This document shows positions 13,104 to 59,778 of a DNA stretch of 64,000 nt, in pieces. Numbering within the stretch: position 1 is the stretch's first letter; each line of letters opens with the position of its first letter. The DNA lies in contig NC_087377.1 of NCBI RefSeq assembly GCF_963675165.1, forward strand, positions 1,699,501 through 1,763,500, in the 5' to 3' direction. The notes under the pieces are model-generated. The model made no database searches. It saw only the letters and a program-made list of their open reading frames with translations, and was not told the origin of the DNA. The stretch is from Halichondria panicea (taxonomy: Eukaryota; Porifera; Demospongiae; Suberitida; Halichondriidae). The position numbers were made by a program, and so were the translations under genes.

Positions 13104-25152
<12,049 letters not shown>

Positions 25153-34860: not shown

Positions 34861-34969
34861 GAGCTCCTCAATCAGAAAGTTTCAGTTCCGCTTCTTTGTA
34901 GGACACATAGATGACGATACAGCGCTAATTGAAGCGAAGCTATCAAAGGACCGATTGGTGAGTAACTTA
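34861..34969 (+). CDS. Candidate first exon, RRM-like first half
   Basis: An ATG opens MSSSIRKFQFRFFVGHIDDD and TALIEAKLSKDRL before a GTGAGT donor. FFVGHI could be an RNP2-type strand followed by helix 1, as in the YLGGLP exons further right, but the match is weak. It lies just upstream of the CXC-like exon at 35035 and about 100 bp from the first recognised CFAP299 exon on the other strand. Confidence 0.35.
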
Positions 34970-35034
34970 GCATCCGATGACTTGATAAATTATAAATGTA
35001 ATAATTAGATTTGTTGAATGTACACAAATTAAAG

Positions 35035-35164
35035 ATGTCAACCGCGAGATGCTGTAGATGTAAAACTGGCACCTGTCAGTCGTGTGTGTGCCAGAAGAAA
35101 GGCAGCCCCTGCTCATACTGCCCCCTGCACATACTGCCCCCCAGGGTCTTCGTGCACAAACAAG
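35035..35164 (+). pseudogene. CXC-like exon with 16-bp tandem duplication (unit 1)
   Basis: ATG followed by STARCCRCKTGTCQSCVCQK, then SPCSYCP. A 16-bp direct duplication (35110-35125 and 35126-35141, TGCTCATACTGCCCCC and TGCACATACTGCCCCC) shifts the frame, so the end (PPGSSCTNK, donor GTTAGT) is readable only in another frame. Cys spacing resembles CXC/CRC zinc-binding motifs. The family's function is unknown. Confidence 0.5.
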
Positions 35165-36309
35165 GTTAGTCCCTATAATTATAGTAGATCTATTCTAGTG
35201 GGTGGGGGGAAGCAGTTAATTGTCTCCACCCTCGACCTCACTTCCGCGATCACTTTAAATCAACTAACGTAAATGTTGATTATCTTTTTAACATTAGTAT
35301 AATTATGTATTAGAAAATGGAAATAGCGAAAAAATAATTGAAATAATTATCAAAAACGGTACCTTTATAATTATTATCACCGTGTTATCTTATTCTATTG
35401 TTTTGGAACTTCTCCAACTTGTACTTATTGTGTTTCATTTTGGCTAGTTGAGTTTACCATTGTTTATTCCATTCCTAAAAGGCATTAACAAAATTGAACA
35501 ATAGTTATGTACTGGGGACCCCATGATGGAAATGCTGTGCTTGCAAGAGATATGAAGGTACGTTGGGGTAGAATGGTAACTGCTTATATAGAAAACGGGA
35601 TTGCCGTTTCTCGTTTCATGCCTTTTTTACGTATTTAACCACCTTTGCAGCAAACCACAATGAAGCCCTGAAAACAATGGGAGAAGAGGAATTCAAGAGG
35701 GGCTCGGCACTGACTAGGTAGCCCTATAGTAAAATACTAGTATAACCTGTTTGGTTGTCTGGTTTGATGTCTGACAACTGCTCTACTGTTTGGTGGCTTC
35801 GCGTTGTGCTGAAGTTGTTTGACTGGTGAGTAGTTTGTTCATAGTGGAAAAGTATGCCATTCCTTGAAGAGAAACATGTGCAACTTTTGAGATCTAGCGG
35901 CCTTGTTGGAAAAGTGCGGCTTTCCACTGATATGTCTCAAGATGACTATAAATTATGGCCGCAGTGTCATCACATCCAAGGGTAGGTGGGTATGCAGAAG
36001 CAAAGGAAACACAACATTTTTTGTAAGACAGAGTCTTGATACCTAAATCAGACGCGGGAGCAGAGATATAGAGCAATCGCCTAAGGTACATAAATACTTC
36101 CTAAGATGAAGACTTACACTGACTGAACTACTTCTATATGCAGACGAGTGCACGAGTTGCACAGATATACAAGGAGTTGCTGTAATTTTCTTACACTTTG
36201 TGGTGTAGTTCAAAAAAGTTCGAAATATATATGGAAAAAGACGAAGTTACAGTAGAAATCTAAAAGTTGAACATTATAAATTATAAATGTCAGGCCATAA
36301 TTATTAGGA

Positions 36310-36421
36310 TGCCAAGTTGTATTACCATCACTAGGCACTTGTGAAAAGAAAATTAAAGAAACTGCATGCTATGCAGGTCATCAAGAGATTGTGACTTACT
36401 TGAGGAGGTTCGATGTAGCAC
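36310..36421 (+). CDS. Isolated ankyrin-like exon
   Basis: Between an acceptor TTATTAG and a donor GTAAGT the frame reads KIKETACYAGHQEIVTYLRR then FDVAL. AGHQEIVTYLR fits an ankyrin helix pair. No neighbouring exon was assembled. Nearby weak exon-like pieces (35519-35572; 35650-35720 NHNEALKTMGEEEFKRGSA; 36144-36185) are unrecognised. The rest of 35165-37365 is non-coding apart from the transposon piece at 36598. Confidence 0.35.
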
Positions 36422-36597
36422 TGGTAAGTGATGTCGTTATAATTATTTGTATATTAATAATTGGTATTGGTAGACATATAGCGAAAAAATGTTTAGAGAT
36501 AAATTGCAAATTTGCTATACCATAAATGTTATTATTATAATAATAAGATCAGGGAGAGCAAGGGTGATGCTGCCAAACTCGGATATTAATTTTGAAA

Positions 36598-37051
36598 AGG
36601 ATAGCTTCAGTATAGGTTTGCTTAGGCTAGTTAGTACAGCAGTGGATATCATGAGCCACCATTGAACTTGTAAACGTGTGTGTAGGTGAAGAACGTTTCC
36701 CGGGAAAAGGGCGTCTGCTGATACGACCTCGCAGAGAAGTTTCGGCAGATCCTGATTGAACTATGTCACCGTGAGAACATTGAGAACACTTACTTAGTGT
36801 CTATAGCACTTTGTGCCTTCGTATAATATTGTTTGTGTACATAATTGTGAATGTTTGTAAACAATCGCTAATTAGTTGGGGGTGGTCAGTTGCTAGGTAA
36901 CGATGATGATGTCATGGTACCCCCGGGGTCTGGGCTACCTGTAGGAAATAGTTACGAGTGATTTCAATGTATGGTTCATAAGATATGGATTTTTAAAGAA
37001 AAACATGTATTAATTCTGTATTATTTTGTTTTAATTAAAGCCGGGAAAGGG
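36598..37051 (-). mobile_element. piggyBac-like element, truncated inverted copy (C)
   Basis: Reverse-oriented homology to the full copies at 39677 and 60526. The right terminus GCCGGGAAAGGG is followed by TTAA (37052-37055). Homology stops near 36598 without a second terminus. The exon-like segment is present, but more diverged. Confidence 0.75.
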
Positions 37052-37364
37052 TTAAAAGAGACGCGTTCACAGGGTGGAAGAATTTATGCAGGCAAGTAAC
37101 TCAGAAACTGCAACTTACAGAGCTCTTGTGAAACTAATCCAGATTATAAAAAACAATTATTGTACTATAATTATATACATTCAATCGTATGCTCGAATTT
37201 CGATTGATATACGAACGAGTAAATATGACATTGCTAGTAAAGTGTTCAAACAGTGCCAAGAGAATGGTAACATAAATTAAGACGATCCTTTCCTTAAATT
37301 CCACTTGAGTGATGGCAATCTTCACTGATTCTCTCAACAACCAATCTTCTGATTCAAGTTAATA

Positions 37365-37905
37365 ACAACTCCAAAAACTAGTAAATGCAGTTAAAATGAG
37401 AACAGCTTTATTATATATACAACGATAAGCACAAAAATGTTCCAGTTTAAAATGGTTGGCTCCAGCCATGGGTTGTAGTCAGGCACGATTTGAGATATAA
37501 AATGAGGACTGTAAAAGAAATCGTGGCAGTGGGAAGTGGCCTTCAAGAAGGGCTGAAAGCAGTGGGCAGCGGAACTCAAGAAGGTGGTTCTTGTGTCAGC
37601 CTATAGGCATGGTGATTGGTTTAGTAGTACACGTCTATTATCGTTACGTGCAGACATTGAATATGAGTAAACGAGCTGGAGAGTGCGACTATTAGCGACA
37701 TTCGATTATACGTGTCTAAATAATGCAAACATTCATTTACGTGGTATATTCGTTTTGTGAGATCTTCACCAAAAAGATGGTTGTTGCAGTGCTCCAGTGC
37801 TCAAAGCGCCGCCAACCCAACAGCAAACTATATTTATGCAGGCAACAGGAAGTGTCAGCGTAAGTATATAAGATATAAACATAAACTGTCACGTCTATAG
37901 CCAGG
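37365..37905. repeat. Segmental repeat shared with 58385-59250
   Basis: Two blocks recur: 37367-37570 (CAAAAACTAGTAAATGCAG onward; also partly at 39058-39150) and 37620-37900 (TATTATCGTTACGTGCAGAC onward). The second block includes an exon-like Cys-containing frame ending at a GTAAGT, which is frameshifted here relative to the 58-kb copy. In the 58-kb locus the blocks are in the other order. Confidence 0.75.
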
Positions 37906-38018
37906 ATTGTACTACATGTATGTACAAAATAATATACAAATGTACGGCTATAATTTTAGTCTATATAATTATAATTATTATGGTCAAACCTGCTAAACCC
38001 ACATCATTGACACCTCAG

Positions 38019-38704
38019 ATCTACTTGTGGATAGCACTGATTCTGGTAGACTAGAAGAATCACGAGTACAGTTGGATGAGCTTCTGGTGGAGGATAAACT
38101 CACTGGAGTACCCCTACTAGTGTTTGCAAATAAACAAGACCTAGGGATGGCTTTAAAAGCTGATGATGTAAGTGTACTATTCCGTTTATTCTAGCTGAGA
38201 GTAGACCTTATAGTTACATGACTGATGTACCTACAAGAATTGTGTGATCATCATTGCATGTAATTCATTCCCCACAGATCAGCAATGATATGAAGCTAAC
38301 TGAGCTGACTGACAGACGATGGCAGATACAACCATGCTCGGCCAAAACTGAAGAAGGGATTGCGGTGAGTAGGACACTTAGCCCTAGCTATCAGCGAGAA
38401 TATTAGAATATTGTACCATTGAGTCTGGTTTTGGGTACCATAGAGCTGTGCCTATTGGAATTATTATACGTACTAGGTAATTGTACATGCTTTGATGTTT
38501 ACTCACTGTAAAGGGTGGATGGTAAAAAGTGAGTAGTTGCTAATTTAAGTATAATACCAGACTTAGACCAACTGCAGTACTTACAGCATGCATTTGAGAG
38601 CAGTATACGTACATATACAATGTGCCATGAATAACTTTGATCTCAACATGCATGATGGGATAGACTGGGTACTCAAGAGTGTAAAGGCATCGTCTAAAAA
38701 CTAA
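38019..38704 (+). pseudogene. ARL3-like small GTPase, 3' fragment
   Basis: Exons 38019-38167 and 38278-38364, plus coding text at 38654-38704, give EESRVQLDELLVEDKLTGVP, LLVFANKQDLGMALKADD, DRRWQIQPCSAKTEEGIA and DGIDWVLKSVKASSKN then stop. This matches ARL3 from just after the G3 region, with G4 (NKQD) and G5 (CSA), to the C-terminus. Exons for the myristoylated N-terminus, P-loop and Switch regions were not found upstream. The last segment lacks an AG acceptor at the expected point (CAT instead of CAG before GATGGG). ARL3 acts in ciliary cargo release; this copy is probably broken. Confidence 0.7.
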
Positions 38705-38744
38705 TCTGCTTCCAATCATAGGCATACCCACTGAACACTTGACT

Positions 38745-39150
38745 TACATGTACATCATAAGTTATGTAACCTCGATAAAAATCCATGAGTTTGAGTTCTC
38801 AACTGTGCTTCAGTGTTTGCCAATATCTACACTAACACGTTACAATGTACAGATCCTGCCTTCTACTAGCCGTACATAATTAAGATGCATGTCTGAATCT
38901 AGTCTCATGACACACAGCAGAAAGGTTGCGAAGAATAGCAAGAATCAAAATCACTTTGTAACTTATGTTTACTGAACTAATACATTGTGTCATTTCTGTA
39001 AGTATACTTTAATTCAGAATAACGGCCGCGATTTGTGGGCTGGGGACTTTAAGAATTCAATAATAATAACTCCAAAAACTAGTAAATGCAGTAAAAATGA
39101 GAACACAGCTTTATTATACGACAAGCACAAAAGTGTTCCAGTTTCAAATG
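38745..39150. repeat. Segmental repeat shared with 58682-59070
   Basis: Near-identical text (CCATGAGTTTGAGTTCTCAA, GCGAAGAATAGCAAGAATC) resumes here after the ARL3-containing interval. In the 58-kb copy the flanks on either side of that interval are joined almost directly. The open frame 39097-39453 lies over this repeat and has no domain. Confidence 0.8.
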
Positions 39151-39676
39151 TATAATAATCAAAACCAGAAATTTTTGCATTTGGTGACAAATGAATTTCA
39201 GCTGCAATCAGTCAGAGATGAGCAGAAGTCAAGATTAAACGTCAGGGTGAGAATTTATAGTAACCATGGCAATATGCCAATTCAAAAGGTGAGGGGCGCC
39301 AAAATTAAAAATAGCACCAATGTTTTTTTTTGCTTGATTTTTAGCCAGGTTGAGCCACAGTATCGCATGAGGTCAATAATACCACACAGCACGATTATCA
39401 AATTAAAAATCACCAATAATATAGATAAGAATTGCCTCTTTGCGAAATATTAGGCTCCCCAAATTTACCTGCTATAATTATGGTAGGCACTGTTTAGGAA
39501 GTTTCTACGTGATTTTGAAGTCTAAAGGGATATAGTTGTAGTATCACGAATGTCTGAATTATTTATTTATTTGCCTTTATACCATGAAAATACTTTTAGA
39601 ACCACCCCCGTTCAGAAAACTTCCAAGCAGCTACTACGAACTCCCCCGGTAAGTTTTAGTTTGTTGGATTGTTTAA

Positions 39677-40575
39677 CCCTTTCCCGGCTTTAATTAAAAA
39701 AACAAAATACAGAATAAATACATATTTTTCTTTAAAAATAAATATCTCATGAACAATGCATTGAAATCACTTGCAACTATTTCCTACAGGTAGCCCAGAT
39801 CCTGGGGGTACCATGACATCATCATCGTTACCTAGCAACTGACCACCCCCCACTAATTAACGATTTTTTACACATTTTACAATTATGAACATAAAGAATA
39901 TTGTATGAAGGCATGAAGTAACTAAAAACACTAAGTAAGTGTTCTCAATGTTCTTACGGTGACATGGTTCAATCAGGATCAGCAGAAACTTCTCTGCGAG
40001 GTCGTATCGGCAGACGCTCTTTTCCCGGGAAATGTTTTCTTCACCTACACACAGGTTTACAAGTTCAATGGTGGCTCATGATGTCCACTTGTGTACTAAC
40101 TAGACTAAGCATACCATACTGAAGCTATACAGACTACATATGATACTCCATAGTTACTTACAAGGTCCAGGACTTTGGTTCATGCTCAGGAGCTTCTTCC
40201 TCTGGCTCTTTAGGCTCTATGTTTATAGCTTGACCTCTGAAAAGTAGTTTCCTCTCTTAGTATGATCCCAGTCACTGTCCTCTTACTCAACAAGGCCATA
40301 AGCATAGTTATTCTCACTGTCTAGCTGCCCTAGAACCTCGCTGAGGTTGTACTACGAAGATCTTGTAGCCATTATCAAACGGTCACTTTTCTTTCGACAG
40401 TACTGCACAAAGTGTACCTCGAGGCAAGATATTAAAGATACCACGTGAAAGAGCAGCCCAATGCGCATGTGCTGGTACCTACAGTGTGTGCATAGCTCCA
40501 ACACAGTGCCCACAACGATTTTTTGAAAATTATCACTACCGCTGCCGTCATATGACGGCTAAAGCCGGGAAAGGG
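39677..40575 (-). mobile_element. piggyBac-like non-autonomous element, full copy A
   Basis: Termini CCCTTTCCCGGCTTTA and TAAAGCCGGGAAAGGG form 16-bp inverted repeats, flanked by TTAA at 39673-39676 and 40576-40579. This is the piggyBac hallmark. There is no transposase. On the minus strand it contains exon-like segments with splice signals (EPKEPEEEAPEHEPKSW before GTAAGT; REKSVCRYDLAEKF after an acceptor). It is nearly identical to copy B. Confidence 0.85.
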
Positions 40576-40579
40576 TTAA

Positions 40580-43240: not shown

Positions 43241-43249
43241 TCAGGCTAG

Positions 43250-43340: not shown

Positions 43341-43347
43341 GTTTCAG

Positions 43348-44684
43348 GCTATGAGATTTAGAGAATTGTTAGGGTTTTCCGAGCGAGCAGAGTTCTTTAA
43401 CAGCTACAAAGATGACTTCAACTTTGATGTTGTCAGCAGGGAAGACAGTGAGGTGAGTCTATAACTATTAATTTTTAGGCAAATATAAATAAATGCTCAA
43501 ATTCTTTGTCCAGCTGAAGGATGAAGAACTGAATTTCTATCGAGATAGTCCTGACAGCTTCTACATTGTACCATTTGCTGACGCCCTGGACTTGGTTCAG
43601 AGCAGACAAGTGGTCATCAAGAGTGTAAGCTTCCATTCTGCAAGCACTGTGTGTCTGTGTGTAACCTACCGTTCCCTCAGGGCGCTGTGTACATACCCGT
43701 CAACAATGAGGAAATGATTGCTCGTTTGGTGTGCAACAAGTTCAGACAGAAGCTTTCTGAGGAACTAGTGGTAAGTAAAACACACCCCTCTCTGTACCCA
43801 TCATCTACTTCATTTCTTCTTCCCCTGCAGAAGACCCGCAACCACCTACCAGTGGTGGATGATGATGATAAGAGGATTGCCCCCATGCTCAAGACCATCA
43901 AACATTGCTACCTTGGTGAGGCACTTCGGTCGTCTACAGTACGGACTGTTCCTCAAGAGCATTGGACTCACACTGGACCAAGCTATGGCCTTCTGGAGAG
44001 CAGAGTTTGTCAAGAAAATGGAACCAGAGAAGGTGTACACTATTATAGGCACATGTTGTACATTTGATTTGGTGTTGATTTCCCACAGTTTGAGAAGCAG
44101 TATGCATACAATGTGAGACACAGCTATGGTACAGAGGGCAAGAGGGCCAACTACACTCCCTATACAGTTGCCTCAAAATCATTCTCTCCAACAATCCAGG
44201 CCAAGGAGACCATCACGGTGAGCTCACCTACAATACTCTTGTACTCTCTCATACTTGTCTGTATATAATTATAGGGTGTCCTTTTCGTCACTGGGATGAT
44301 AGTCACATTCGACAGATACTCACCACTCATGGAGTTTCACATAAAGGAGTCACTAACATCACCGCCTATCTGAAGGATGACCACTACCAACTAGCCTGTC
44401 AGAAATACTATGAGATCACTCATGCTGTGAGTTAATAAATCCTTCTGCTGTTTTTATTTGTTTATAATACTGGTTTGTCATTTCAGATTGAAGCTGCCCC
44501 TTTCAGTTTGGAGCACCCCTCTCAGTATTTCCGGGAGAGCCGAATGCAGCGTGGGGACACTGGTGGTAAACAAGAGACAAGACTGCCAACTGTAAAGACT
44601 GAAGTGAAAGCAGAGGATGATTTTTGTGGAGATATATCAATTCAAGACATGCAGAACTTTGAAGAAGAAATGGACCAATTCTAG
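43348..44684 (+). pseudogene. PRIM2: DNA primase large subunit (PRIM2) homologue, 5'-truncated and frameshifted
   Basis: Seven exons: 43348-43452, 43514-43624, 43681-43770, 43831-44032, 44089-44217, 44275-44426, 44487-44684 (TAG). Recognisable PRIM2 text: [90 protein letters not shown]2 is the Fe-S subunit of the replicative primase. Lesions: the N-terminal ~170 residues are absent. In exon 4 the frame changes before RHFGRLQYG and about 50 residues, including the first Fe-S cysteine region, are missing. In exon 5 an extra TA in CCCTATACAG shifts the frame, with the correct frame (CLKIILSN) shown by the next splice phase. The last Fe-S cysteine is Arg (YFRES for FFCES). Sequencing error for one lesion cannot be excluded. 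Confidence 0.85.
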
Positions 44685-44943
44685 CTATATTCTACCACCA
44701 GTTATATCCTACCACCTGTATGTATACCACATGCTCTCTAGTAGTAAACACTCTTTGATCCGCTGTGTATACGTTTTTGTGTTGCGTGTGCCACTTGCAC
44801 TTGTCATTAGCGAAAGATCAGTTCTCTGAGTCACTATACTATAATGACAAGCAGAGCAGATCCTATAATTATATAATCTACTGAGCCAATTCAGTCAGTG
44901 ATAACGTTTAAAAAAAAAAAAGCGGTCTGGCCAGAAACTGCTT

Positions 44944-45586: not shown

Positions 45587-46512
45587 CTAGTGATAGCCAA
45601 TCAATTCAGGGTTCGTCCTTCTCTTGTGGGTGTGGTCTGTCAATCCAATCACCAATGGGCAACGGTCGCTCCCAAACACCTCCTTACGAATCACCACATC
45701 AGTTACATGAAGGAGGAGCCGCTCAGACACCACGAAATAATCCAGCCTCCTGAAGAAAAAGAAATGTGATCATATTAACAGTAATGTACTTAATGGCCAC
45801 TCTTAACCATCTACGATATAAAAAGCCCACCTCCTACATACCTTTATCGGACAGCAAAAAATAATTATTTTGGAAATTGTCCGGGTATAATTGGAACAGA
45901 TTTTTATAGAGCATGTGAAGTGTCCGGAATAATTAGAACAAGCAAGCAGCTGCATGCGAGCTAGCTAAGTTTAATAGAATGCTGTGCGATTGAATAGTTG
46001 CACTAGCTATCTAAAACTAGCTATCTAACTGCAGCACTCTAAGTCTTACTTGCCGTCTGTGAATGTAACTCAACTTTTCAAAGTATTGTCCGGATTTTTA
46101 GAACAAATGTAATATTAAAGCACTGGAGTGTCCGTTGTATTAAAACAACGAAAATTGCCCAAAAGAGAGTCCGGGGTAATTAGAAGTGTCCTATAAATTA
46201 GAAGATATACGGTAATTATAATGGACAAACCCAAATGTTTTGTGTTATAAAATGGTTCCGCTGTAACTATACAGCTTTGCTCACACACACACTGAAATTG
46301 AAATTACACTCTATTTCTAGAGTAATGCGGGAGCACTCACCAGCCAGTGTTCTTGGCTCTGGCGTTGAACTGGTAAGTGTACGCTCCAGCGAGGTCGGGA
46401 TACAGGTGACGGAAGGTGTCCACGAAACTCTCCTCCAGTAGCTCTGTGAAGTCCTGTCTCTCCTCGGGCGTGAAACCAGCTGTCTTTGTGTTTGTCTTGG
46501 GGTTCTTCAAAT
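45587..46512 (-). pseudogene. APEX1: AP endonuclease 1 (APE1/ExoIII family) homologue, last two exons, catalytic His replaced
   Basis: Exon 46512-46341 reads [33 protein letters not shown] and NARAKNTGW. Exon 45749-45587 reads RLDYFVVSERLL ... EVFGSDRCPLVIGL then TAG. The splice restores the codon W before RLDYF. This matches the C-terminal third of APE1, the main abasic-site endonuclease. The conserved GSDHCP motif, whose His is catalytic in APE1, is GSDRCP here. The DYF aspartate is kept. Upstream exons with the other active-site residues were not recognised. Between the exons lies a TA-type MITE. Probably a non-functional fragment. Confidence 0.75.
45836..46214. mobile_element. TA-type MITE (copy 1), within the APE1-like intron
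   Basis: Closely similar to 62901-63299 (shared ATTGTCCGGGTATAATTGG, TAGAACAAGCAAGCAGCTGC). The right end AATTAGAAGATATACGGTA is preserved and the left end is decayed. Confidence 0.75.
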
Positions 46513-47336: not shown

Positions 47337-48107
47337 CTGTAAAGGAGTGGATGACAGTGCTTGACACAAGTGTATTACAAGAAGTGTGCTTGTGCATGCA
47401 ATCGTGGATATAATAATGGATGTGTATAAAATATTATATAGATTTAGCAATTGGTTAGAATCACTCTTTTTGCGTTATTAGAATCGTTGTTGGCTATTGG
47501 GTCAAAGGTAGCTACTGGCAAATGTGCATGGTCTAATGTCAGTGAGTGGGTGTTCACAATTGAACCAGCTGGTTGGAGGGGATCTACTTGCCATCATGGT
47601 GATCATGCACCTTCTTGTGAGAGGTTCTATATATTGTGCTCAGTACAGTGCATGCAACACAATGTAGACAGCATTTGAGTGATTTGGCTAAAATCAATTC
47701 ACACACATACGTACACACAAAGACTCTAATTAGAAATACAATTAACCAACACAAGTACATACAGTCACTACTCTTTTTTTTTTGATTTCAACCTGCAGAC
47801 AAAGTGCATGCATGGTGCCAGCACATCACACTCGAAAAACAGGAACAAATTTAAAACTTACACTTTGTCCTTTGATCAATAATTATATATTTTTTTCTAA
47901 GGCCATTTTGCTGAGAGTTCATTAAAAAATGTAATGAAGGCAAACCCGATACAGAAAGTATAATGGTTTACTTATACAATAATTATTGTGAGTGGATGGT
48001 ACTAACCCCTCCCTTCCCTTCGCCCATGGGATGTCCACCGACTGCACAACTGAGAAGTAAAGCACATGTTAATTTGTCGAACCACCATGCACTTAAAAAT
48101 GACTCAC

Positions 48108-48200
48108 GCTGGTTCCTCCAAAACAATAGAGGGCAATTCTTATGTCCCCCTTCGTGGTACGGGGAGGGAGGCCTCCCAAGTAAATTTCTCTGGATGCCGT
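48108..48200 (-). pseudogene. RRM first-half exon (unit, minus strand)
   Basis: The frame contains REIYLGGLPPRTTKGDIRIA and LYCFGGTS before a GTGAGT donor. YLGGLP is an RNP2-type strand. The expected acceptor reads GG (CCTTACGG) instead of AG, unlike the copy at 49930, so splicing may be lost. A likely second-strand exon (VDIPWAKGREG) lies at about 48046-48013. Confidence 0.5.
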
Positions 48201-48713
48201 CCGTAAGGGGGTGGAGGAACCGGTTATATACATGTATATTCAGCTCATTATTAAATATTATCCTCCAAAATAGTAACATGCATATAATTATATATATATA
48301 TATACGATTCCTCGAGCATGGATATCCTTGTGAATGCGTATATATATATAGTGGTTAGCTCTCTATAGATTTCTGTGTTAGAGTAGTATAGTGTCGTTGT
48401 TGGCTTTGTTCATGCGAGACAGTGACTGAAGAGTTATACACAACTCCAATGCATCTAGTCGACCTATTGATAGGCGTGCTTTTTCCATTTAAAAAACTCG
48501 AGCCCCCCCCCCCTATTGTGAAATTGCTTCATACACCACTGATACAGATATAGATATAGAACACGTACACATGCATGTCGATACAACATAAAACAAATCG
48601 TTTGCGCGGCTTGAATTTATACAAATAATAGGCAATCTTGTACTATATATAATTCGGGAATTCGAGCATAACTGCATATAATACATGTATGCACGCATGG
48701 TCACTCACTGAAC

Positions 48714-49050
48714 ATTTCCTCTTAGGTGGAGGGGGAACTAGCTGACTAGCGGGTACCTGTGGAGGGAGTGCAGGGGTCAATGACATGAACTCAGTTAAAT
48801 GCTACATCCTGTGTAACGAATGGCACACTAAATAATCGTTTTATACGGTTGGAGGTGGGGCTGGTGAGTTAGGGAGTGGGGTATAATGGATGGACCAGCA
48901 CTGACACTCATAGTGTCGTTGTTGGCTACATGTTGTCATTAAGGCATAATTGTTCGGGACACTCACGCAACGCTTCAACCGTAGGGTCAGGCCCCTAGCT
49001 AGGGCTAGTGGGTTCGGGAGTAGTGCGGCACACTGGGTGGAAGAACTAGC
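48714..49050 (-). CDS. Two short candidate exons, Pro/Arg-rich
   Basis: 49050-48967 (SSSTQCAALLPNPLALARG, ending LKRC before GTGAGT) and about 48758-48714 (PASQLVPPPPKRKCS before GTGAGT) have both splice signals. They probably belong to the tail of the RRM/CXC units. No known domain. Confidence 0.3.
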
Positions 49051-49530
49051 CTGTGAGGGAATTGGAGGAATCACATAAACTAAATCAAGTACATGCTTCC
49101 GTACTATTGTACTACAAACACCTAGTGATAGCTGGTTCAGTCTTGTATACGATGTGAGTGCATAAAAACAGCTGCTATAATTATATACTAAACAGGGCTT
49201 CACCTATATAGCCTTACGCAGCTCAGTATAATCATACAGAATGATATAGGTCTGCATACATGAAGTAGTATAGTGGTAGCTTAATCCTGTACACTTGTAT
49301 TGTTTTTATTATTTAATCTGAGCAGTATTCTCAGGAGGCAAACATTTACGAAACGAAACCAATGCACACGAGAAAAAATAATAGACCATGAGTAATTTTA
49401 TAGACCACTATAGACCATGCACCAGAGAACAAGTGTATAATTTTGATTTATGACAACCCTAGTGGGACCAGCACTGCATGCACACACACAACACTGAGTA
49501 TTAACTATAATAACATGGAGGGAGACTAAC

Positions 49531-49596
49531 CTGGTTTGAGCATCTTGTGCTGCAACAATTTGTACATAGTCCTTTTTTACATCTGCAGCATACCAT
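49531..49596 (-). CDS. Compact intact CXC-like exon
   Basis: ATG then VCCRCKKGLCTNCCSTRCSNQ... in 22 codons before a GTTAGT donor. It has eight cysteines in a compact CxC/CxxC arrangement and no frameshift, unlike most copies. It is preceded by CACCTCACATCAGC, also found upstream of the plus-strand copy at 52617. Confidence 0.5.
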
Positions 49597-49838: not shown

Positions 49839-49930
49839 GCTGGTGCCGCCAAAACAACGGAGGGCTCCCTGATAACCCCTTTGGTGGTACGCGCAGGGAG
49901 GCCTCCCAAATAAATTTCTCTGGATGCCGT
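49839..49930 (-). pseudogene. RRM first-half exon with 1-nt deletion
   Basis: Acceptor CCTCACAG, then REIYLGGLPARTTKGVIRE. A missing G (GAGCCCTC for GAGGCCCTC) shifts the frame before the usual CFGGTS end; the GTGAGT donor is intact. A downstream exon piece near 49773-49738 reads SLVLPGGRKGRG, equivalent to the second-strand exon of the 59-kb gene. Confidence 0.5.
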
Positions 49931-50800: not shown

Positions 50801-50822
50801 AACAACATGGATAGAGACTAAC

Positions 50823-50937
50823 CTTATTTGTGCACCTGTAGCTCTGATGCAGTTGCTGCCGGTTCTACCTGCCTGGGCACACACACACAGCTGTTGCACG
50901 ACCCAGTCGTGTACTTGCAGCTGCATTTAGATGCCAT
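50823..50937 (-). pseudogene. CXC-like exon, frameshifted (minus strand)
   Basis: ATG then ASKCSCKYTTGSCNSCVCV. After CVC the conserved SNC and CTNK parts occur in other frames, up to the GTTAGT donor. It sits at the centre of symmetry (about 51 kb) between minus-strand units to the left and plus-strand units to the right. Confidence 0.45.
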
Positions 50938-51500: not shown

Positions 51501-52035
51501 AAAAGTAACTGATATTAATGTTCGTCTGTGCATGTTGTCTATAATACTATAATTATAATTATTATGATGCCAAGCTAAATCACTCAAAATGCATGCATGT
51601 TGTATGCAATATAATTATATATTACAGAACCTTTTACAAGAAAACAATCACCCGCTATGTGGCAGATAGTGGTTGATACTTGAGGGTGCTGACATTCACA
51701 CTATAATTGGTACTATAATAATATACTGATCCAAGTTTCCATTCTCAACTGCTGATCCAATTTATCTTTGTTCTTCACTGAATCTATTGCTCATTGTTAC
51801 TGATGGCTGGTCGAGGTATTCTGCCACGCCACTATGTCTGCCTAGGAAGCAGTTTAAAATAGCTTAATTATGAATGTACAATATCGGCAATGCTAACGCT
51901 GATGGCATGTAATAATTATTTCAATGTACTTGATGTGTTATTTCTGGATATCAAGATCAGAATTCCAACATGGCAAAGACATCTCTTTGTTCCATGTAAG
52001 TATTTATTAAATTAAATAGATGTTAAAACGACTGG

Positions 52036-52407
52036 TGATCGATATCCACTGACAAAGCTGTACAAAAAAAATTATTATTAAAGGCAAAAATGTCAAGAGG
52101 AGAAGAGGAACGGAGGACTACAACTATCACTAATTCCCCGTTGCCACTTTATGCAATGAAAGGGCCCGAGATGGCTATTAAGAAAAACACACTGCAAAGG
52201 GCAATGCTCGGGAGGACACTGTACCACTTAACCCCTGAGCATATGCGAACGCCTCTGCAGAAGGCAACAAGGAGAAGACTGGACCACTCTCAGTCGAAGA
52301 TGCTCACCAATCTTCCTCGACCAACCCAGCCACAGTCTCCACCCCAGCCACAGCTAACCCAGCAGCGAACCTATAGCCACAGTCTCCCCCCCCCCCGGAA
52401 ACCGTGA
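52036..52407 (+). CDS. Candidate RRM end plus Pro-rich tail
   Basis: A frame with KIIIKGKNVKRRRG resembles the RRM last strand and basic extension. An overlapping frame from ATG 52090 runs 105 codons, ending PTQPQSPPQPQLTQQ...SLPPPRKP with TGA, like the minus-strand tail at 47256. Which frame is used is uncertain; a frameshift between them is likely. Confidence 0.35.
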
Positions 52408-52616
52408 GGGCCATGATGTAGGGTTGAATTGACAGCCGAGGCTCCATTAATTTTGGGAATCGTGTGTATACTACTATAATTATAGGCTAATAATTATGAG
52501 CTGCATATAATTATATCATTGACTCAACTATATAGAGCAACTAAAACCGAGTGGACTCGACTAGACTATCTTCAACTGCCTCACATCAAAACTGCAACTA
52601 TACACCTCACATCAGC

Positions 52617-52735
52617 ATGTCGTGCTGCAGATGCAAAATAGGAATATGTAGCGGGTGTGTGTGTGCCCAGGGGGGCACACCCACTCAAGAGGCAATAAAA
52701 AATTTTTCGTTGCAAAAAAAGGAAGTTAATGTGCA
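52617..52735 (+). pseudogene. CXC-like start fused to RRM second half
   Basis: MSCCRCKIGICSGCVCAQGG then directly TQEAIKNFSLQKKEVN: the middle of the unit is deleted. Two copies of the unit's terminal intron text (GATGTGCTGGCACCA...CACAGGTTGAAAT type) follow by 52830. Confidence 0.5.
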
Positions 52736-52913
52736 TGCATGCATGTTCCTGTTATGTGATGTGCTGGCACCACATGCATACACTTCACATCATGTGCTGG
52801 CATCACATGCATACACTTCATCCACAGGTTGAAATTCAAGAAGTAACAGTACTGTTATTATGATGCCAAGCCAAATCACTCAAAATGCTTGTGCTGTCTC
52901 CAGGGTTCACCTT

Positions 52914-52978
52914 CGCCACTAAGAATCGGCCAATGAGGCAGTGAAGAAAAAATTTGTTTCAGTTAAAGGAAAAAATGT
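52914..52978 (+). pseudogene. RRM second-half exon, frameshifted
   Basis: After TGTCTCCAG the text FTFAT and, in another frame, NEAVKKKFVSVKGKN are read before a GTAAGT donor. The GKN end is in phase 0, supporting the ancestral phase of the last RRM intron. Confidence 0.45.
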
Positions 52979-53040
52979 AAGTTAATGTGCATGTCACTGC
53001 ATCATCTCAGCTCGCATGGTATCTATAAATAGCTATTAAA

Positions 53041-53144
53041 TGCTGTAGATGTAGCACAGGAGCATGCCACAGATGTGTGTGTCCATGCATGGCAGACCTT
53101 GCAGCAATTGTATCCCTGGAACAAGCTCGAGGTGCACCAACAAG
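53041..53144 (+). pseudogene. CXC-like exon, 1-nt deletion
   Basis: CCRCSTGACHRCVC, then in another frame MHGRPCSNCIPGTSSRCTNK to the donor. A missing G after CVC explains the shift. No in-frame ATG. Confidence 0.5.
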
Positions 53145-53288
53145 GTTATAGTCTCTATATATATATATATATATATTCATGTTGTTATAGTTATGGCAGC
53201 ATCCAAACAATCTATTTACGAGGCCTCCCTACTGACAACAAAGAATTGAGACTCTCAGCTCCACTGCTCTGGTTCGACTAGCGTGACC

Positions 53289-53458
53289 ATGTCGGCATGC
53301 TGCTGCAGATGCACAAAAGGATCTTGCCAAAGTTGTGTGTGTGCCCAGTTCCGTGACCATGTCGGCATCATGCTGCAGATGCACGAAAGGATCCTGTCAG
53401 AGTTGTGTGTGTGCCCAGGCCGTGTACAAAATGCTTCAGCACCAGCTGTACTAACCAG
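53289..53458 (+). pseudogene. CXC-like exon with internal duplication
   Basis: ATG then SACCCRCTKGSCQSCVCAQ. The DNA encoding this start is repeated 55 bp later in another frame (TGACCATGTCGGCAT twice). The C-terminal half PCTKCFSTSCTNQ before the GTTAGT donor is in yet another frame. Confidence 0.5.
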
Positions 53459-53936
53459 GTTAGTCTCTATGATATCAAACAAAATTTGGTTTTAATCAAA
53501 GGTGCATGTTCCTGTTATGTGATGTGCTGGCACCATGCATGCACTTTGTCCACACGTGGAAATTAAAAAAAAGAGTAGTGACTGTATGTACTTGTGTTGG
53601 TTAATTGTATTTCTGTGCGAGGACAAAACAATGGTACCTGCAGTTGTGAAGCCACAATGAGGATCCAGAGGTTTTGTACAGTATAATTATGCCTCGGTGA
53701 TCTCCAAATTAATGATAAATAATTAAGCTAGTGTTTTAAATTTTAGGACAACAATGCTAAAAAGCAGTACAAGTACGGTGGCCAAAATAGCATCAAACGG
53801 AGGCCCTACATGAAGATGTCTATTATAAGAAAACCTCTCTGGTCTCTTGCGGCTATTCACAAAGTTATGCCAGTGGGTATACTATGTACTATGTGCTCAT
53901 CATTCTCAGGCATGCACCGAGAAGAAGTGTTTTGGG

Positions 53937-54300
53937 AGGTCTACCTCATGGGTGCACAGAAAAATAAAGAGAGAAGAGTGTTTGTCTCTGGTCTCCCCCC
54001 ACATACGTCGAGGGACTCTGTGGCGGAGGCCCTGAAGATGTCTAATAATAACAAAGTTATGCCAGTGGGTATAATTATGTGCTCATCATTCACAGGCATG
54101 AATGCACTAACTGGTGTTCTCTGTTCTCTGACCCCCCACTCCCTCACAGACAACTGGCACAGCTCCAGGAACACCTCCGACAGCACCTGCAGTCGTCACT
54201 GTTAATGTTGTCCTCTCTGGTATAGAAAGGAAGGAAGAGGGTTCCGGTTCGCCTTTGCAACTTTTTTTTTAGTAAAAAAGCGGCCGAAATGGCAATAAAG
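53937..54300 (+). pseudogene. RRM copy, both halves partly readable
   Basis: ERRVFVSGLPPHTSRDSVAE then ALK, followed by a short tandem duplicate (AAGTTATGCCAGTGGGTATA at about 53861 and 54054). A second half (FAFATFFFSKKAAEMAIKTA) is seen near 54245-54300. The two are not joined by clear exons. Confidence 0.4.
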
Positions 54301-54563
54301 ACCGCATGTTTTCATGAGGCTTGCCACAGATTTGATGCGTATTATGAATCGATTTTCCAAGCCAAAATGCTCTAGCGTTATAATTATAAATTAAAAAAGG
54401 TTGTAAAAATGATGTTATAATTGCAGTCCAACAAATATCGGCTTGTAGAAATCATATGCTCTAGACGGACTAAAGCGGACGTCATGAGAACGGTATATGC
54501 TTTGTGCTCTGCCTTGGTACATGTTCACTGCATGTGTATATAGAATTTCTCGTTAGGTCACAG

Positions 54564-54636
54564 GTGTGTGTGTGCCTTGGGAGGTGGAACCTGTAGCAAT
54601 TGCCTCCCTGAAACGGGATCCATGTGCACCAACAAG
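54564..54636 (+). CDS. CXC-like exon, open but 5'-truncated
   Basis: CVCALGGGTCSNCLPETGSM then CTNK in one open frame, showing the full second half of the motif. The donor is GCTAGT rather than the GTTAGT found in other copies. Upstream CCRC residues are missing; an acceptor-like GTCACAG precedes it. Confidence 0.45.
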
Positions 54637-54694
54637 GCTAGTCTCTATCCAAGCTCATCCCTCAGCACCGGCCATATCCATGCATGGCATCTAG

Positions 54695-54866
54695 ATCTGC
54701 TAGTTGCTGCAGATGCAAAACTGGGTCCTGCAGCAGCGGGTGTGTGTGAAGTGATCATCCAGCCCAGGGGTTTGCCTTTGTTGCGTTTGTGAATAAAGCA
54801 GCAGCAGAGAAGGCTATTGAAGCGAAAAATATTATAATTAAAGGGAAAAGAGTAATAGTTGTGTGA
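54695..54866 (+). pseudogene. CXC-like start followed by RRM second half
   Basis: ASCCRCKTGSCSSGCV ends at a TGA. Then the frame GFAFVAFVNKAAAEKAIEAK, NIIIKGKRVIVV opens, with RNP1-like FAFVAF, and ends TGA. The CXC piece and the RRM piece are in different units or joined by deletion. Confidence 0.5.
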
Positions 54867-55124
54867 ATGTTTATAATGGCACCACATGCACACTTTGTCC
54901 ACAGGTGGTAATCCAGAAGTAACAGTATACTATGATATACCAAGCCAAATCACTCTAAGTTATTGAATTATGTATATACATTACTGAAGTATCAACCACT
55001 ATCTGCATGAACACGAACACGAACACAAGCATTTTATGTGGTCCCTCCATTTGGTAGGGAAAGCCATGAACATTTTCAAAAGACGATGGTATAGAAATAT
55101 ATATATATACTATTATAATTACTC

Positions 55125-55742
55125 TCGCAACCGAGAAGAAGTGTTTTTGGACGGCTTGCCCCTTGGATGCACCATTAACACTGTGAAGGTGGCCCTCCAA
55201 TGCTGTGAAACAATCCATGTAAGTTATAATCCCATCGCCTGGGTTCGGGTTTGCTACCATAAAAACAGTCGCAGAAGCTGAGAAGGCTATAGAAGCCAAA
55301 AGTATTATAATAAAAGAAAAAAGAGAAATAGTTGTGTGAATGCATGTTATATGATGTGTTGGAACCATGCACATACTTTGTCCACATGCATTGACTCGAC
55401 TGAGTGTTGATGTTACTGGTTCCTTTACTCACAAAAAAGTGCATTTGGGCTGCAGGGACAATCAAAGATGACATCAGTGCTTTGGCCCCACTAGCGTGAG
55501 TCATTATAAGCTAGGGTATAAATTTAAAAAATGATGTAAGTTTAATGTGCATGTTCCTGTTTTGTGCTGGCACACACTTTGTCACAGGTGAAACTCCAGA
55601 AAAGAGTAGTATGTTATATAGAAACAGAGCATAATATTATATTCATATATCCATGGGTTCGGGTTTGCAACCCTAAAAACAGCTGCAGAAGCTGAGAAGG
55701 CTATAGCGGCCAAAGCTGTTGTAATCAAAGAAAAAAGAGTAA
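55125..55742 (+). pseudogene. RRM unit (first half, two second halves)
   Basis: REEVFLDGLPLGCTINTVKV then ALQCCETIH to a GTAAGT donor. The second half FGFATIKTVAEAEKAIEAKS follows (55245-55339, TGA). A further second-half copy FGFATLKTAAEAEKAIAAKA lies at about 55660-55735. Segments 55523-55640 and 55820-55935 are near-identical direct repeats. Confidence 0.5.
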
Positions 55743-55969
55743 GTTTTAATAGTTGGCACCACATTCGCCACATTCGCAAAAGTGTCAGCTGACAATGACG
55801 TATACAGGGGAAAAATAATTTAAAAAATGATGTAAATTAATGTGCATGTTCCTGGCACACACTTTGTCACAGGTGAAACTCCAGAAAAGAGTAGTATGTT
55901 ATATAGAAACAGAGCATAATAATTATTATATGCATATATGTATATAGATTGTGCTCATCCCAGCCCAGG

Positions 55970-56130
55970 GGTAATTCGCCTTTGCCACCCTAAAAAGCAA
56001 AGCCACGGCTGAGAAGGCTATTGAAGCCAAAACTATTTTAATTAGTTTGGATTCGTTACTTTCAAACAAAAGCAGCAGCAGAGAAGGCTATTGAGGCTAA
56101 AAGCATTATAATTAAAGAAAAATAGTTAAG
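55970..56130 (+). pseudogene. Two tandem RRM second halves
   Basis: FAFATLKSKATAEKAIEAKT and, 70 bp on, TKAAAEKAIEAKSIIIKEK then stop. Both end like the 54.8- and 55.3-kb copies, showing local tandem duplication of this exon. Confidence 0.5.
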
Positions 56131-56273
56131 TTTTAATATAGTTGTGTGATGTGCTGGCATGTACGCACTTTGTTCACAGATTGAAATCAGAGTAACAACT
56201 TCACGTGTAGTATTATTATTAGTTAATTAATCATTATAAAAAGGGCCACATCTTCTCTAGTGCTCTCTCCGGC

Positions 56274-56339
56274 ATGGCATCAGTAAACTGCTGCAGGTGC
56301 ACGACTGGGAGCTGCAGCGGATGTGTGCCTAACAAATGA
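56274..56339 (+). CDS. Short CXC-like open frame
   Basis: ATG, then ASVNCCRCTTGSCSGCVPNK and TGA: 21 residues keeping the first five cysteines. The stop replaces the CxC...CTNK half. A truncated copy, or possibly a very short peptide. Confidence 0.35.
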   Translation: MASVNCCRCTTGSCSGCVPNK

Positions 56340-56435
56340 GTTGTGTATAACTGCCAACAACGACACAATCTGAAAACAGCACCGGCCTCTAGATCTATCC
56401 TCTATCAGCTAGCTTCTAGATGGTTTCCAATTAAC

Positions 56436-56690
56436 AAAGTTTTGCAGATGCATAACTGGCACATGCCTCAACTGTGTATGTGCCCGGGGAGGTAGGCCAT
56501 GCAACAATTTCCTTCCTGGAGCCCGTGGCAATTGCACCAATAAGGTTAGTCTATCCATAATGTGATAGTTATAGCTGCATTTAAAAATAATACAAATGTA
56601 CATAGGAGGCCTCCCTATTAGTACCACAACAGGGATATCAGGAATGTTTTGCACCCACCAGTGCGAGTCAAAAATCTGGCAAAAAAGCAA
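56436..56690 (+). pseudogene. CXC-like exon followed by RRM first half
   Basis: 56436-56544 reads FCRCITGTCLNCVCARGGRP, CNNFLPGARGNCTNK in one open frame to a GTTAGT donor: the best full-length CXC copy, with one Cys changed to Phe. About 50 bp on, YIGGLPISTTTGISGMF begins an RRM first half that soon meets stops. This adjacency shows that CXC and RRM exons belong to one unit. Confidence 0.55.
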
Positions 56691-56801
56691 CAAATAAAAA
56701 AAATATGTTTACAATGACGGAAGTTATGATGTGCTGACCGTGCACACTTGTCCACAGGTACGTGGAAATTAAAGTATAAGAATCAATTATGTATTATCCA
56801 G

Positions 56802-57063
56802 ACAGTCTCGATCCCAGAAGTGTCGTCGATATCCTCTAATCAAGAAACGACTAGTCGATGAAATAATCAAAGATGACGTGAGTTCGGGTTGATTCATTTA
56901 TGCAATCCTCAGTAATCCTATTCAGGACTTCAAGCAGCAGCTACGGTTGAAAATGGGTGATAACTTCCCAAGCTGTTTACAACGTGCTGTTGTCGCACCT
57001 TCCTTGTCTATTGAAACAAGAACAAGGCATTTGGATAAAGAAAAATGTTACCTACGTTGCCCT
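56802..57063 (+). CDS. Unrecognised two-exon coding segment
   Basis: 56802-56877 (QSRSQKCRRYPLIKKRLVDE, IIKDD) and 56926-57063 (DFKQQLRLKMGDNFPSCLQR, ending DKEKCYLRCP) have clean acceptors and GTGAGT donors and join in phase 0. The basic, Cys-bearing composition suggests a nucleic-acid-binding or transposon-derived protein, but no family is recognised. Flanking exons were not found. Confidence 0.45.
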
Positions 57064-58384
57064 GTGAGTTTGAGAATACAACCGATAATTAGGAGAGTGG
57101 GTTATTGCTTACAATAAAATAATAGCATAATTTATGATGTTTGGATGATGTAATAAAGAACTCTGAAAACCGCTGTATGGTTAGACGGAAGTATGGTGGG
57201 CGTCATGCAGTCAGACTTGCGTAACGATGACGCATATAGTACCTCCGTCATCCTGGGTCATGAGGTTAAAGGTTATCCTCCTGGGCGGCAGATTATTTAT
57301 GCTCAAAGGTGATGGATACACTCTTAAAGAAAATGTAAATACATCATCATCAATCAAGAGAAATCAGTGGCTAACTGATTTCGCAAAATCTGGCCTGCTA
57401 TTAACTTTATAATATCTGGTTGAGGATGTCTTTACAATATCTGGTTGATGATGTCTCCCTCAAACGATCAGCTATGGCCCTTGCTCGCATTTTCATTGTA
57501 TATGATGCACAATGTGACATATCACACACATGCACAGAGTATGTCACTAGTGAGGTCTCAATAAGTTTCAATATTTTCTAGTTAATTAGCTATTAGCCAA
57601 CACGGACGTTTAACAGAAATGTAAGAAATTGAAATCTGATTCCCTTAATATGACATCATTTTGTGGGGCGGATTATATGTCAATGTGGTTTCGATACACA
57701 TAAATTGCATATGTAGCTTTTCAAAAAATAAATGCTCAATTTGAAATTTGACAAGAGAGTTTCAATGTCAATGATTATAAATTATCAAGTTATTACAATT
57801 ATTGTAGAAGAATTTTTGTTTCATTGTACAGATAAACGACAACCACAACAAACATACAGCAACAACAATCAAGACCAACACCAAACCTTAACTTTGCATC
57901 TGGACCACCAATAAAACCAATAAATCACTTGAACTTTGTATTCTCGACAGTTATTATCCCTCAAAGGATACGCACATTACTATATAGTTCATCATTATCT
58001 CTGATAAATTAATTGACAACTAATCGCAAGTCTGTTCTTTATTGAAGCTCACTCTCTCTCTCTCTCTCTCTCTCAGTTCTCTGATTCGCAAGGTTTCAAT
58101 TATTTGCAAGTTATTTCTCAGAGCCAGAGTGAACAGAAGAATGAATGGATGATGGAGTGCGTGTATAAGTTAGTGACAGTACAAATTGTCACTGACATTC
58201 CTTTTTTACTGTTCATCGTAATTATTCAGATATTCTATGATCCAAGTTCTCAACTGAGCGAAGTTCAACTCCATGTGGCAAAAACATTTGAACCGGAAAG
58301 GGTTTTATTAAACATAATTATTGTGACACACAACGAAGAAAATGTGGAACCCATAAGTCTGCTCTTGTTAACTATGGCACTTAT
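57064..58384. other. No gene recognised
   Basis: A+T-rich with a (CT)n tract at 58048-58076. Open frames at 57227-57412, 57732-57914 and 58104-58430 have no domain or splice support. Confidence 0.5.
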
Positions 58385-59250
58385 ATGTACACGTCTATTA
58401 TCGTTACGTGCAGACATTGGATATGAGTAAACGAGCTGGAGAGTGCGACTATTAGCGACATTCGATGATACGTGTCTAAATTATATAATGCAAACATTCA
58501 TTTACGTGGTATATTCGTTTTGTGCAGATCTTCACAAAAAGATGGTTGTTGCGGTGCTCGCTCAAAGCGCCGCCAACCAAACGCGAAACTGTACTGCCTC
58601 CAGTGTTACATGCAGGCGACAGGAAGTGTCAGCGTAAGTATAACATATAAATAAACATAAACTGTCACGTCTATAGCGCAGCACATCATAAGTTATGTAA
58701 TCTCGACAAAAATCCATGAGTTTGAGTTCTCAACTGCGCTTCAGTGTTTGCCAATATCTATACACTAACACGTTACAATGTACAGATCCTGCCTTCTACT
58801 AGCCGTACATAATTAAGATGCATGTCTGAATCTAGTCTCATGACACACAGCAGAAAGGTTGCGAAGAATAGCAAGAATCAAAATCACTTTGTAACTTATG
58901 TTTACTGAACTAGTATCGTGTCATTTCTGTAAGTATACTTTAATTCAGAATACCGCAATTTGTGGGCTGGGGGCTTTAAAAATTCAATAATAATAACTCC
59001 AAAAACTAGTAAATGCAGTAAAAATGAGAACACAGCTTTATTATACAACGATAAGCACAAAATTGTTCCAGTTTCAAATGGTTGGCTCCAGCCATGACTT
59101 GTAGTCGGATACTTAGATTCTAACACGCTTTGAGGTATAAAATGGAGGACTGTAAACAAAATCGTGGCAGTGGGCAGTGACCTTAAAGAAGGGCTGAAAG
59201 CAGTGGGCAGCGGCCTTTAAGAAGGGCTGAAAGCAGTGGGCATGCATTTG
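58385..59250. repeat. Segmental repeat (second copy of the 37.4-39.1 kb blocks)
   Basis: Contains, in order, the TTATCGTTACGTGCAGACAT block, the TTTGAGTTCTCAACTGCGCT block and the CAAAAACTAGTAAATGCAG block, lacking the ARL3-bearing interval. An exon-like frame at 58529-58631 (KDGCCGARSKRRQPNAK, LYCLQCYMQATGSVS) is open here between an acceptor GTGCAG and a GTAAGT donor. It is Cys-rich and unrecognised. Confidence 0.75.
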
Positions 59251-59340
59251 GGTAATAAACGAGCTGAATATGCATGTCATAATTATATAATTACTCAACT
59301 TATCATGAGTTCAGGTCACTCATTCCTCTATCCCTCACAG

Positions 59341-59778
59341 ACACTATCAAAACAATTATGCAAGGTGTATTTGGGCGGCCTCCCTGCTGCGGTGAGCAAA
59401 GGAGACATCAGGGAGGCCCTCCATTGTTTTGGAGCCACCAGCGTGATTCATTATTAAGGGTGGTGGTTCGACCAATTAACTTGACTGTGCTATACTTTTC
59501 TGTTGTACAGTGTGTGGAAATACCAGGACGACAAGGAGTGACAAGGGGTTAGTACTATGCATCCACTCATATAAAATTGCAATGCATTGCTTGTTGTCTC
59601 CAGGATATGCCTTCGTCACATTTGGTTTGCAAACGTCAGCTGAAAAGGCAATAAAAGCCAAACAAATTGTTATTAACGGGAAAAAATTAATGTAAGTTTT
59701 TACTGTTTTCATGAATGTTGTGTTGATGTGCTGGCACCATGCATGCACTTTGTCAACAGGTTGAAATCAAGAAAGTAG
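59341..59778 (+). CDS. RRM protein, most intact unit of the family (5' incomplete)
   Basis: Exons 59341-59442 (KVYLGGLPAAVSKGDIREAL, HCFGATS), 59511-59547 (CVEIPGRQGVTRG), 59604-59691 (YAFVTFGLQTSAEKAIKAKQ, IVINGKKL) and 59760-59778 (stop). Together these give a full RRM: RNP2 (VYLGGL), strand 2, RNP1 (GYAFVTF), helix 2 and the last strand. Phases 0 and 1 match at the first two introns. The first donor is GTGATT instead of GTGAGT. The last exon is read as LKSRK in the spliced frame; VEIKKVA in another frame matches sister copies, suggesting a small insertion before the last donor. No start codon or CXC exon lies in phase upstream. RNA binding is inferred from the fold. Confidence 0.6.

Follow-up and report, generated by a model that had tools for sequence, protein, structure and literature searches.

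Broken CXC and RRM exons in the window

A 64-kb stretch of the Halichondria panicea genome (C1:1699501-1763500; hereafter the window) carries at 34861-59778 a cluster of exons that encode either a short cysteine-rich CXC motif or one half of an RRM. This region is a graveyard of broken, mostly dead CXC-RRM copies, the decaying part of a multi-copy gene family. The analysis used genomic DNA only, and the genome comprises 131 Mb in 39 contigs. With a threshold of 15 bits, profile hidden Markov models (HMMs) gave 11 CXC, 5 RRM-first-half and 8 RRM-second-half matches in the window; all 24 fall within 34861-59778, none in the rest of the window, and 20 dinucleotide shuffles of the window produced no match at this threshold. 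The training set of these models included window sequences. A second set, built from the copies on contig C16 only and applied at E up to 0.01, detected 15 CXC stretches, 14 of them inside the same interval and one weak match outside it (24908-24943, E 9e-3), as well as six RRM-first-half and nine RRM-second-half stretches, all inside; it missed a broken CXC exon at 49.59 kb and a broken RRM second half at 47.9 kb. Since several of the CXC stretches are the two halves of one frame-broken exon, the window holds about ten CXC exons. The pieces at 34.9-59.8 kb occupy both strands. The clustering of CXC-like pieces and RRM halves on both strands of 25 kb, described in the first-pass annotation, is thus borne out by the profile models and the empty shuffles, and alignment to the C16 copies confirms that the GTTAGT donor, the RRM exon borders, the proline-rich exons and the last intron noted there are all real.

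The best copy of the window, at 47770-49596, and its six sisters on C1 are pseudogenes. Its exon 1 (49596-49531), previously listed as an intact piece, has lost 36 nt relative to the sister copies, the exon 4 acceptor has changed from CAG to CGG, exon 5 has gained 1 nt, and exon 6 has lost its acceptor AG and has 1-nt losses within the exon. The lesions of exons 4, 5 and 6 are common to all seven C1 copies compared (the window copy and the six sisters). No complete open model was seen in the window, where this copy is the one modelled in full, and the runs of single exons at 52.6-56.5 kb represent fragments. The CXC exon near 56436-56544 had also been regarded as intact; one of its cysteines is replaced by phenylalanine, and the ATG a short way upstream belongs to another frame, which ends in a stop.

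Two arrays contain related exons: the larger, segmental one spans C1:1.24-2.25 Mb and the other C16:386-449 kb. A further degenerate, broken cluster of the family lies at C1:5.24 Mb. The genome-wide match lists for CXC and RRM exons are lower bounds, and the inspected matches outside the C1 and C16 arrays either contain the CXC motif alone or belong to other RRM genes. A further RRM match lies at C6:1738152, with 35% identity and one open frame. The parts of the literature reached by an aimed search describe no CXC-RRM or expanded RRM family of this kind, and the chimeric CXC-RRM family is apparently undescribed.

Predicted genes on C16 and the possible sources of their domains

The models predicted on C16 share one plan, in which exon 1 encodes the CXC motif, exons 2 and 3 are proline-rich, and exons 4-7 encode one RRM. 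Two copies are cleanly open, namely d418 (C16:418385-420280; 462 nt including the stop) and e436 (C16:436.8-434.1 kb, minus strand; same plan, 462-nt reading frame); both have the phases 0,0,0,0,1,0 and frames that end in a stop. A third copy, b396 (C16:396.6-394.7 kb, minus strand), follows the exon plan of d418, but its frame has gained 1 nt in exon 6 and is restored by displacement of the exon 7 acceptor. It remains open only by way of this shifted segment, in which the end of the RRM and the tail do not align in frame with those of d418. All splice borders of the three models are GT-AG. The d418 protein has an exon 1 running from MSALCCRC to RCENQ, proline-rich exons that end in NIC and PPPPKRKRS, and then the RRM. 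The spliced proteins pass the gathering threshold of RRM_1 (PF00076; 20.7 bits) with 35.7 bits for d418, 41.2 for e436 and 38.8 for b396. By the general definitions of these motifs, RNP2 and RNP1 of d418 are IYLGGL and RGFAFARF, with the aromatic residues present, and RNP2 of e436 is VHVGGL, with histidine at the aromatic position. The linker encoded by exons 2-3 ends in a basic PPPKRK or PPPKRR resembling a nuclear localization signal (NLS), and the family proteins are small (~150 aa). The combination of CXC motif, basic proline linker and RRM suggests a small nuclear protein that may bind both DNA and RNA.

The proposal that one gene family joins a CXC motif to a split-exon RRM is partly supported by these models, as the motif and a spliced RRM recognized by Pfam occur in one predicted gene on C16, although the fully modelled window copy is dead. 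The direct junction of the CXC exon with the RRM exon that had been envisaged does not hold, because two proline-rich exons stand between them. An intron-less full retrocopy, which would prove a joined transcript, is absent among the genome-wide matches listed; of the candidates considered, the match on C2 is an hnRNP gene and that at C1:5.24 Mb is the broken cluster.

This hnRNP gene, at C2:8.39 Mb, was matched in a search with the e436 protein. It has two hnRNP-type RRMs and, by eye, a Gly/Tyr-rich tail, and its hand-spliced protein matches hnRNP A2/B1, A1 and D-like. Its RRM2 is interrupted by two phase-0 introns, one following FGPIS and one preceding VEVKK, and by a phase-1 intron that follows SRG; the three RRM introns of the CXC-RRM family have the same positions and phases. 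In addition, the 18-nt start of intron 5, GTTAGTACCANCCACTCA, has 11 exact matches in the 131 Mb: seven copies on C1, three on C16 and the homologous intron of the C2 gene. Nine more matches appear with one mismatch, five of them in the C1 array. The same 18 nt read backwards gave, as a control, a single match with up to one mismatch, and 3 of 200,000 shuffles of the intron matched equally well. Because the intron positions and this intron start are common to the family and the C2 gene, the RRM was most likely derived from RRM2 of the C2 gene by copying at the DNA level, introns included. Two side observations concern these sequences. A one-mismatch intron-5 start and a CXC match at C1:4640334 and C1:4648478, 8 kb apart, possibly mark a fourth family site. 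A second set of RRM exons lies beside the C2 gene (L059:2900-3201), which may therefore be tandemly duplicated.

The other half of the chimera has a counterpart in a retroelement. The CXC motif, which has eight cysteines in the family, forms the first ~35 residues of open reading frames (ORFs) of up to 1088 aa that encode reverse transcriptase (RT) of a type resembling long interspersed nuclear elements (LINEs) and are dispersed in the same genome. An RT fragment has at least 97 genome-wide matches (150 of 173 candidates scored). A hand count of 41 CXC matches gave 21 with RT no more than 2.5 kb downstream in the same orientation, 12 of the array type and 8 in neither class; three RT-linked CXC copies (C1:1378069, C1:1523266 and C1:1881167) lie inside the CXC-RRM array of C1. 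No RRM was found in any of the four RT ORFs scanned. A part of the element tested for a C-terminal nuclease (L045), which may resemble a restriction-like endonuclease, has no match in Pfam or NCBIfam. Membership of the family motif in the Tesmin/TSO1-like CXC family (PF03638) was rejected, as none of 12 members matched it in Pfam, in a search whose HMMER filters remove most matches with E above 0.1. The sole Pfam match of the motif is to metallothionein, in one of the 12 members (E 0.053), and a PDB profile search with it gave no match at E up to 10. The parts of the literature covered by an aimed search likewise contain no paper on CXC or zinc-finger retroelements of this kind.

Divergence of exons and introns and its possible causes

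There is a strong, testable case that exons age faster than their own introns. Between d418 and b396, the differences amount to 14/102 in exon 1, 6/48 in exon 3, 16/93 in exon 4, 0/34 in exon 5 and 16/80 in exon 6, and to 6/465, 6/236, 18/498, 2/66, 0/58 and 1/74 in introns 1-6. With the poorly aligned exon 2 (16/45) excluded, the pooled values are 52/357 for exons vs 33/1397 for introns (Fisher 3e-17); with exon 6, in which b396 is shifted, left out as well, exons differ at 36/277 (Fisher 3e-12). The rates dS and dN, for synonymous and non-synonymous divergence, are 0.351 and 0.107 (dN/dS ~0.3), and 28% of synonymous vs 2.4% of intron sites differ, so that even synonymous divergence exceeds that of introns. 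Between d418 and e436, exon 4 (42/93) is more diverged than intron 4 (13/66) and exon 6 (26/83) more than intron 6 (12/74). Across 91 non-independent pairs formed by 14 hand-picked copies from a total of 54, exon 4 is more diverged than intron 4 in 90, with means of 0.363 and 0.162.

Dead copies were compared in the same manner. The C1 pseudogenes differ from one another at 122/3865 sites in exons 3-6 (3.2%) vs 495/17377 in introns (2.8%; 15 pairs, L057 left out). From the C16 copies they differ at 395/3064 exon and 513/13756 intron sites, excluding intron 2, which cannot be aligned between the two contigs and for this reason has a pooled divergence of 15%, as high as that of an exon. Two pairs of C1 and C16 pseudogenes are near parity, with 4/92 and 6/115 in the exon vs 3/111 and 8/258 in the flank.

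On balance, we favour the interpretation that this is a decaying chimeric family, composed of a CXC motif shared with an RT element, a basic proline linker and an hnRNP-derived RRM, and subject to conversion that is opposed by selection on exons. Duplication or gene conversion would transfer DNA between the C1 and C16 arrays, and selection would eliminate those conversions that overwrite exons of working genes, thereby keeping their proteins distinct; in dead copies the exons would no longer resist conversion. If conversion and selection act together in this way, the differences among the proteins of coding copies matter.

Several observations weigh against this interpretation. The CXC-RRM genes are predictions from genomic DNA alone, and b396, one of the two copies on which the main exon/intron comparison is based, may have become a pseudogene recently. 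The contrast between d418 and e436 is mixed, as exon 5 (11/34) equals intron 5 (19/58), and exon 5 of type-A copies is conserved as much as introns. Positive selection is not shown, because dN/dS is below 1, and simple positive selection on exons was rejected on the same ground. With respect to the origin of the two halves, protein segments of the family and the C2 gene are only 31-43% identical, and conversion within the family would not explain the 18/19 intron match to the C2 gene. An idealised RRM query returned 15 matches without the C2 gene, so that its RRM2 is singled out by introns and not by protein similarity. Just one of the four RT ORFs passes the RVT_1 cut-off (L042, 2.3e-12); L040 remains below it (9.6e-5), and the shorter L030 and L041 ORFs have no match.

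A process directed at exons is an unlikely alternative source of the same contrast. In this case a mutational or copying mechanism, such as targeted mutation or conversion with spliced cDNA as the template, would alter the exons of expressed copies after recent duplication. It would accommodate the joint rise of synonymous and non-synonymous divergence between d418 and b396 next to six introns (58-502 nt) at 0-3.6%, the differences in exon 6 among d418, b396 and the C1 copy L053 (16/80, 16/82 and 17/83, with 0-1 differences in the flanking introns), and the location of RT copies in the same C1 array. However, type-A copies have an unchanged exon 5, the whole of C16:386-449.5 kb, the window and parts of the C1 array contain no closer donor exons, and the exon spectrum is mixed (A/G 25, A/C 15, C/T 12, A/T 7, G/T 5, C/G 4); the near parity of the pseudogene pairs is also explained by selection.

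Weaker still as a candidate is intron constraint, through splicing or through self-regulation by the RRM protein, which would make the introns look young while the exons age normally. The intron-5 start common to the family and the C2 gene suggests some constraint of this type, and the excess of exon 4 over intron 4 in nearly all of the hand-chosen pairs would agree with it; nevertheless, introns 1 and 3 (484 and 502 nt) are conserved end to end, and the introns of the C1 pseudogenes drift about as fast as their exons. The least credible explanation, to which we assign very little weight, is that all CXC and RRM pieces are debris of one mobile element with no host gene: the motif does begin the ORF of an RT element, and the array units are repeated and broken, but the family RRM pieces are confined mainly to the two arrays and the degenerate cluster, the seven-exon models lack RT and share RRM introns with a host gene, the scanned RT ORFs lack the RRM, and d418 and b396 have a dN/dS well under unity. 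The possibility raised in the first-pass annotation that all copies belong to a transposon with known proteins applies in part: the CXC motif begins the ORF of an RT element, but the CXC-RRM genes are clustered and bear introns.

Under the favoured reading of conversion opposed by selection, interference with the retroelement is the most economical guess at the function of the proteins, because their first domain is common to protein and element. The CXC motif would bind the target of the retroelement's own N-terminus and the RRM would bind RNA, and it is a tentative possibility that the nuclear proteins thereby compete with or restrain the CXC-bearing element. It appears quite improbable that the exons, not the introns, of expressed copies are rewritten to generate a repertoire of nuclear RNA- and DNA-binding proteins against this element, with reverse-transcribed spliced RNA of sister copies, or the many single-exon fragments of the arrays, perhaps as templates. 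The family would offer a case in which the birth of chimeric genes can be traced, with one half taken from an hnRNP-type host gene with introns and the other common to a resident retroelement. If the proteins do oppose the element, a genome defence has been made from the element's own recognition motif.

Neighbourhood of the cluster and comparison with known systems

Table 1. CXC-RRM copies, exons and fragments located in the window.
Feature	Position	Strand	Basis
Type-A CXC-RRM pseudogene, seven recognisable exons	47770..49596 (low end approximate)	-	alignment to C16 copies
Exon 1, CXC motif, internal deletion; GTTAGT donor next	49531..49596	-	
Exon 2, proline-rich, ends in LRLKRC	48967..49050	-	
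Exon 3, proline-rich, ends in PPPPKRKCS (NLS-like)	48709..48756	-	
Exon 4, RRM first half (RNP2 IYLGGL)	48108..48200	-	
Intron 4, 97% identity to intron 4 of C16 copy d418	48042..48107	-	
Intron 5, starts with GTTAGTACCATCCACTCA; same in C2 hnRNP gene bar one changed base	47948..48006	-	
Exon 6, RRM second half (RNP1 GFAFITF)	47862..47946	-	
Pseudogene RRM first half; break identical to C16:392086-391995	49839..49930	-	
Frame-broken CXC exon; C16:396.8 kb counterpart broken at about the same place	50834..50934	-	
CXC exon, frame-broken	35044..35170	+	
CXC fragment MSCCRCKIGICSGCVCAQGG	52617..52685	+	
CXC exon, frame-broken	53038..53147	+	
Two adjacent CXC pieces, MSACCCRCTKGSCQSCVCAQ and MSASCCRCTKGSCQSCVCAQ, without RRM half between	53289..53464	+	
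CXC second half and further CXC fragment	54559..54746	+	
RRM first half	55138..55203	+	
Five RRM second halves in a run (54768, 55241, 55655, 55975, 56060)	54768..56122	+	
Longest CXC exon of the window, then GTTAGT donor; one Cys to Phe	56437..56544	+	
RRM exons 4-7: first half, short exon, second half, C-terminus	59341..59778	+	

Other features of the window include a 423-aa ORF at 6187-7455 (plus strand) with a strong RVT_1 match (1e-30), which by eye belongs to a different element of the type without long terminal repeats. The ORFs at 768-2069 (plus), 13292-13756 (minus), 3614-3883 (plus) and 23635-24132 (minus) match Roc, Death and Ig domains below threshold and contain clear ankyrin repeats, and an 846-aa ORF at 14508-17045 (minus) without a Pfam match resembles by eye that at 768-2069. 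The Roc, Death, Ig and ankyrin ORFs possibly form an immune-like neighbourhood, which would suit a defence setting but proves nothing. Exons at 43400-44690 (plus) and 45600-46500 (minus) resemble by eye the large subunit of DNA primase and an AP-endonuclease. A repeat at 39673-40345 and 60522-61196 is 98-99% identical over two 300-nt stretches and has an inverted copy at 36615-37056 (91-93%), and long minisatellite-like ORFs with the repeat unit VHTVGPHYRLCTLAT occupy 29644-31389.

Among known proteins, the RRM of the family is most similar to RRM2 of the hnRNP A/B/D type, as the best PDB matches of d418 are hnRNP A2/B1, A1 and D-like and the three intron positions and phases are those of the C2 gene. 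In contrast to the hnRNP A/B type, which has two RRMs and a glycine-rich tail, the family models contain a single RRM and stop shortly behind it, and they differ from the A/B/D type by the N-terminal CXC motif and the basic proline linker. With the LINE-like RT ORF of the same genome, the family shares a CXC motif directly after the initial methionine (42-57% identity of eight family sequences to L040), followed by proline-rich sequence; unlike this ORF, it has introns and no RT, and its second and third cysteines are closer together by one residue. The Tesmin/TSO1-like CXC (PF03638) and the MSL2 CXC have a similar style of C-x-C spacing, with nine cysteines in place of the eight of the family motif. 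Host-transposon fusion genes that arise by transposase capture likewise unite a domain of a mobile element with a host domain in one gene, whereas the CXC-RRM genes share their motif with an RT element and have an RNA-binding partner domain.

With regard to the pattern of divergence, the nearest parallel is the primate L/M opsin pair. In gibbons both synonymous and non-synonymous divergence of these genes exceed that of introns, which was explained by gene conversion together with purifying selection in exons (PMC3213168). The excess of synonymous over intron divergence between d418 and b396 is similar to the opsin case, from which the family differs in having many copies on two chromosomes and in that the evidence presented here consists of counts by region. 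Snake three-finger toxin genes are reported to have introns that are alike and exon segments that differ, owing to segment switching (ASSET; PMC2474615). Unlike the exon changes described there, those of the CXC-RRM family are scattered substitutions, and they affect an unrelated protein.

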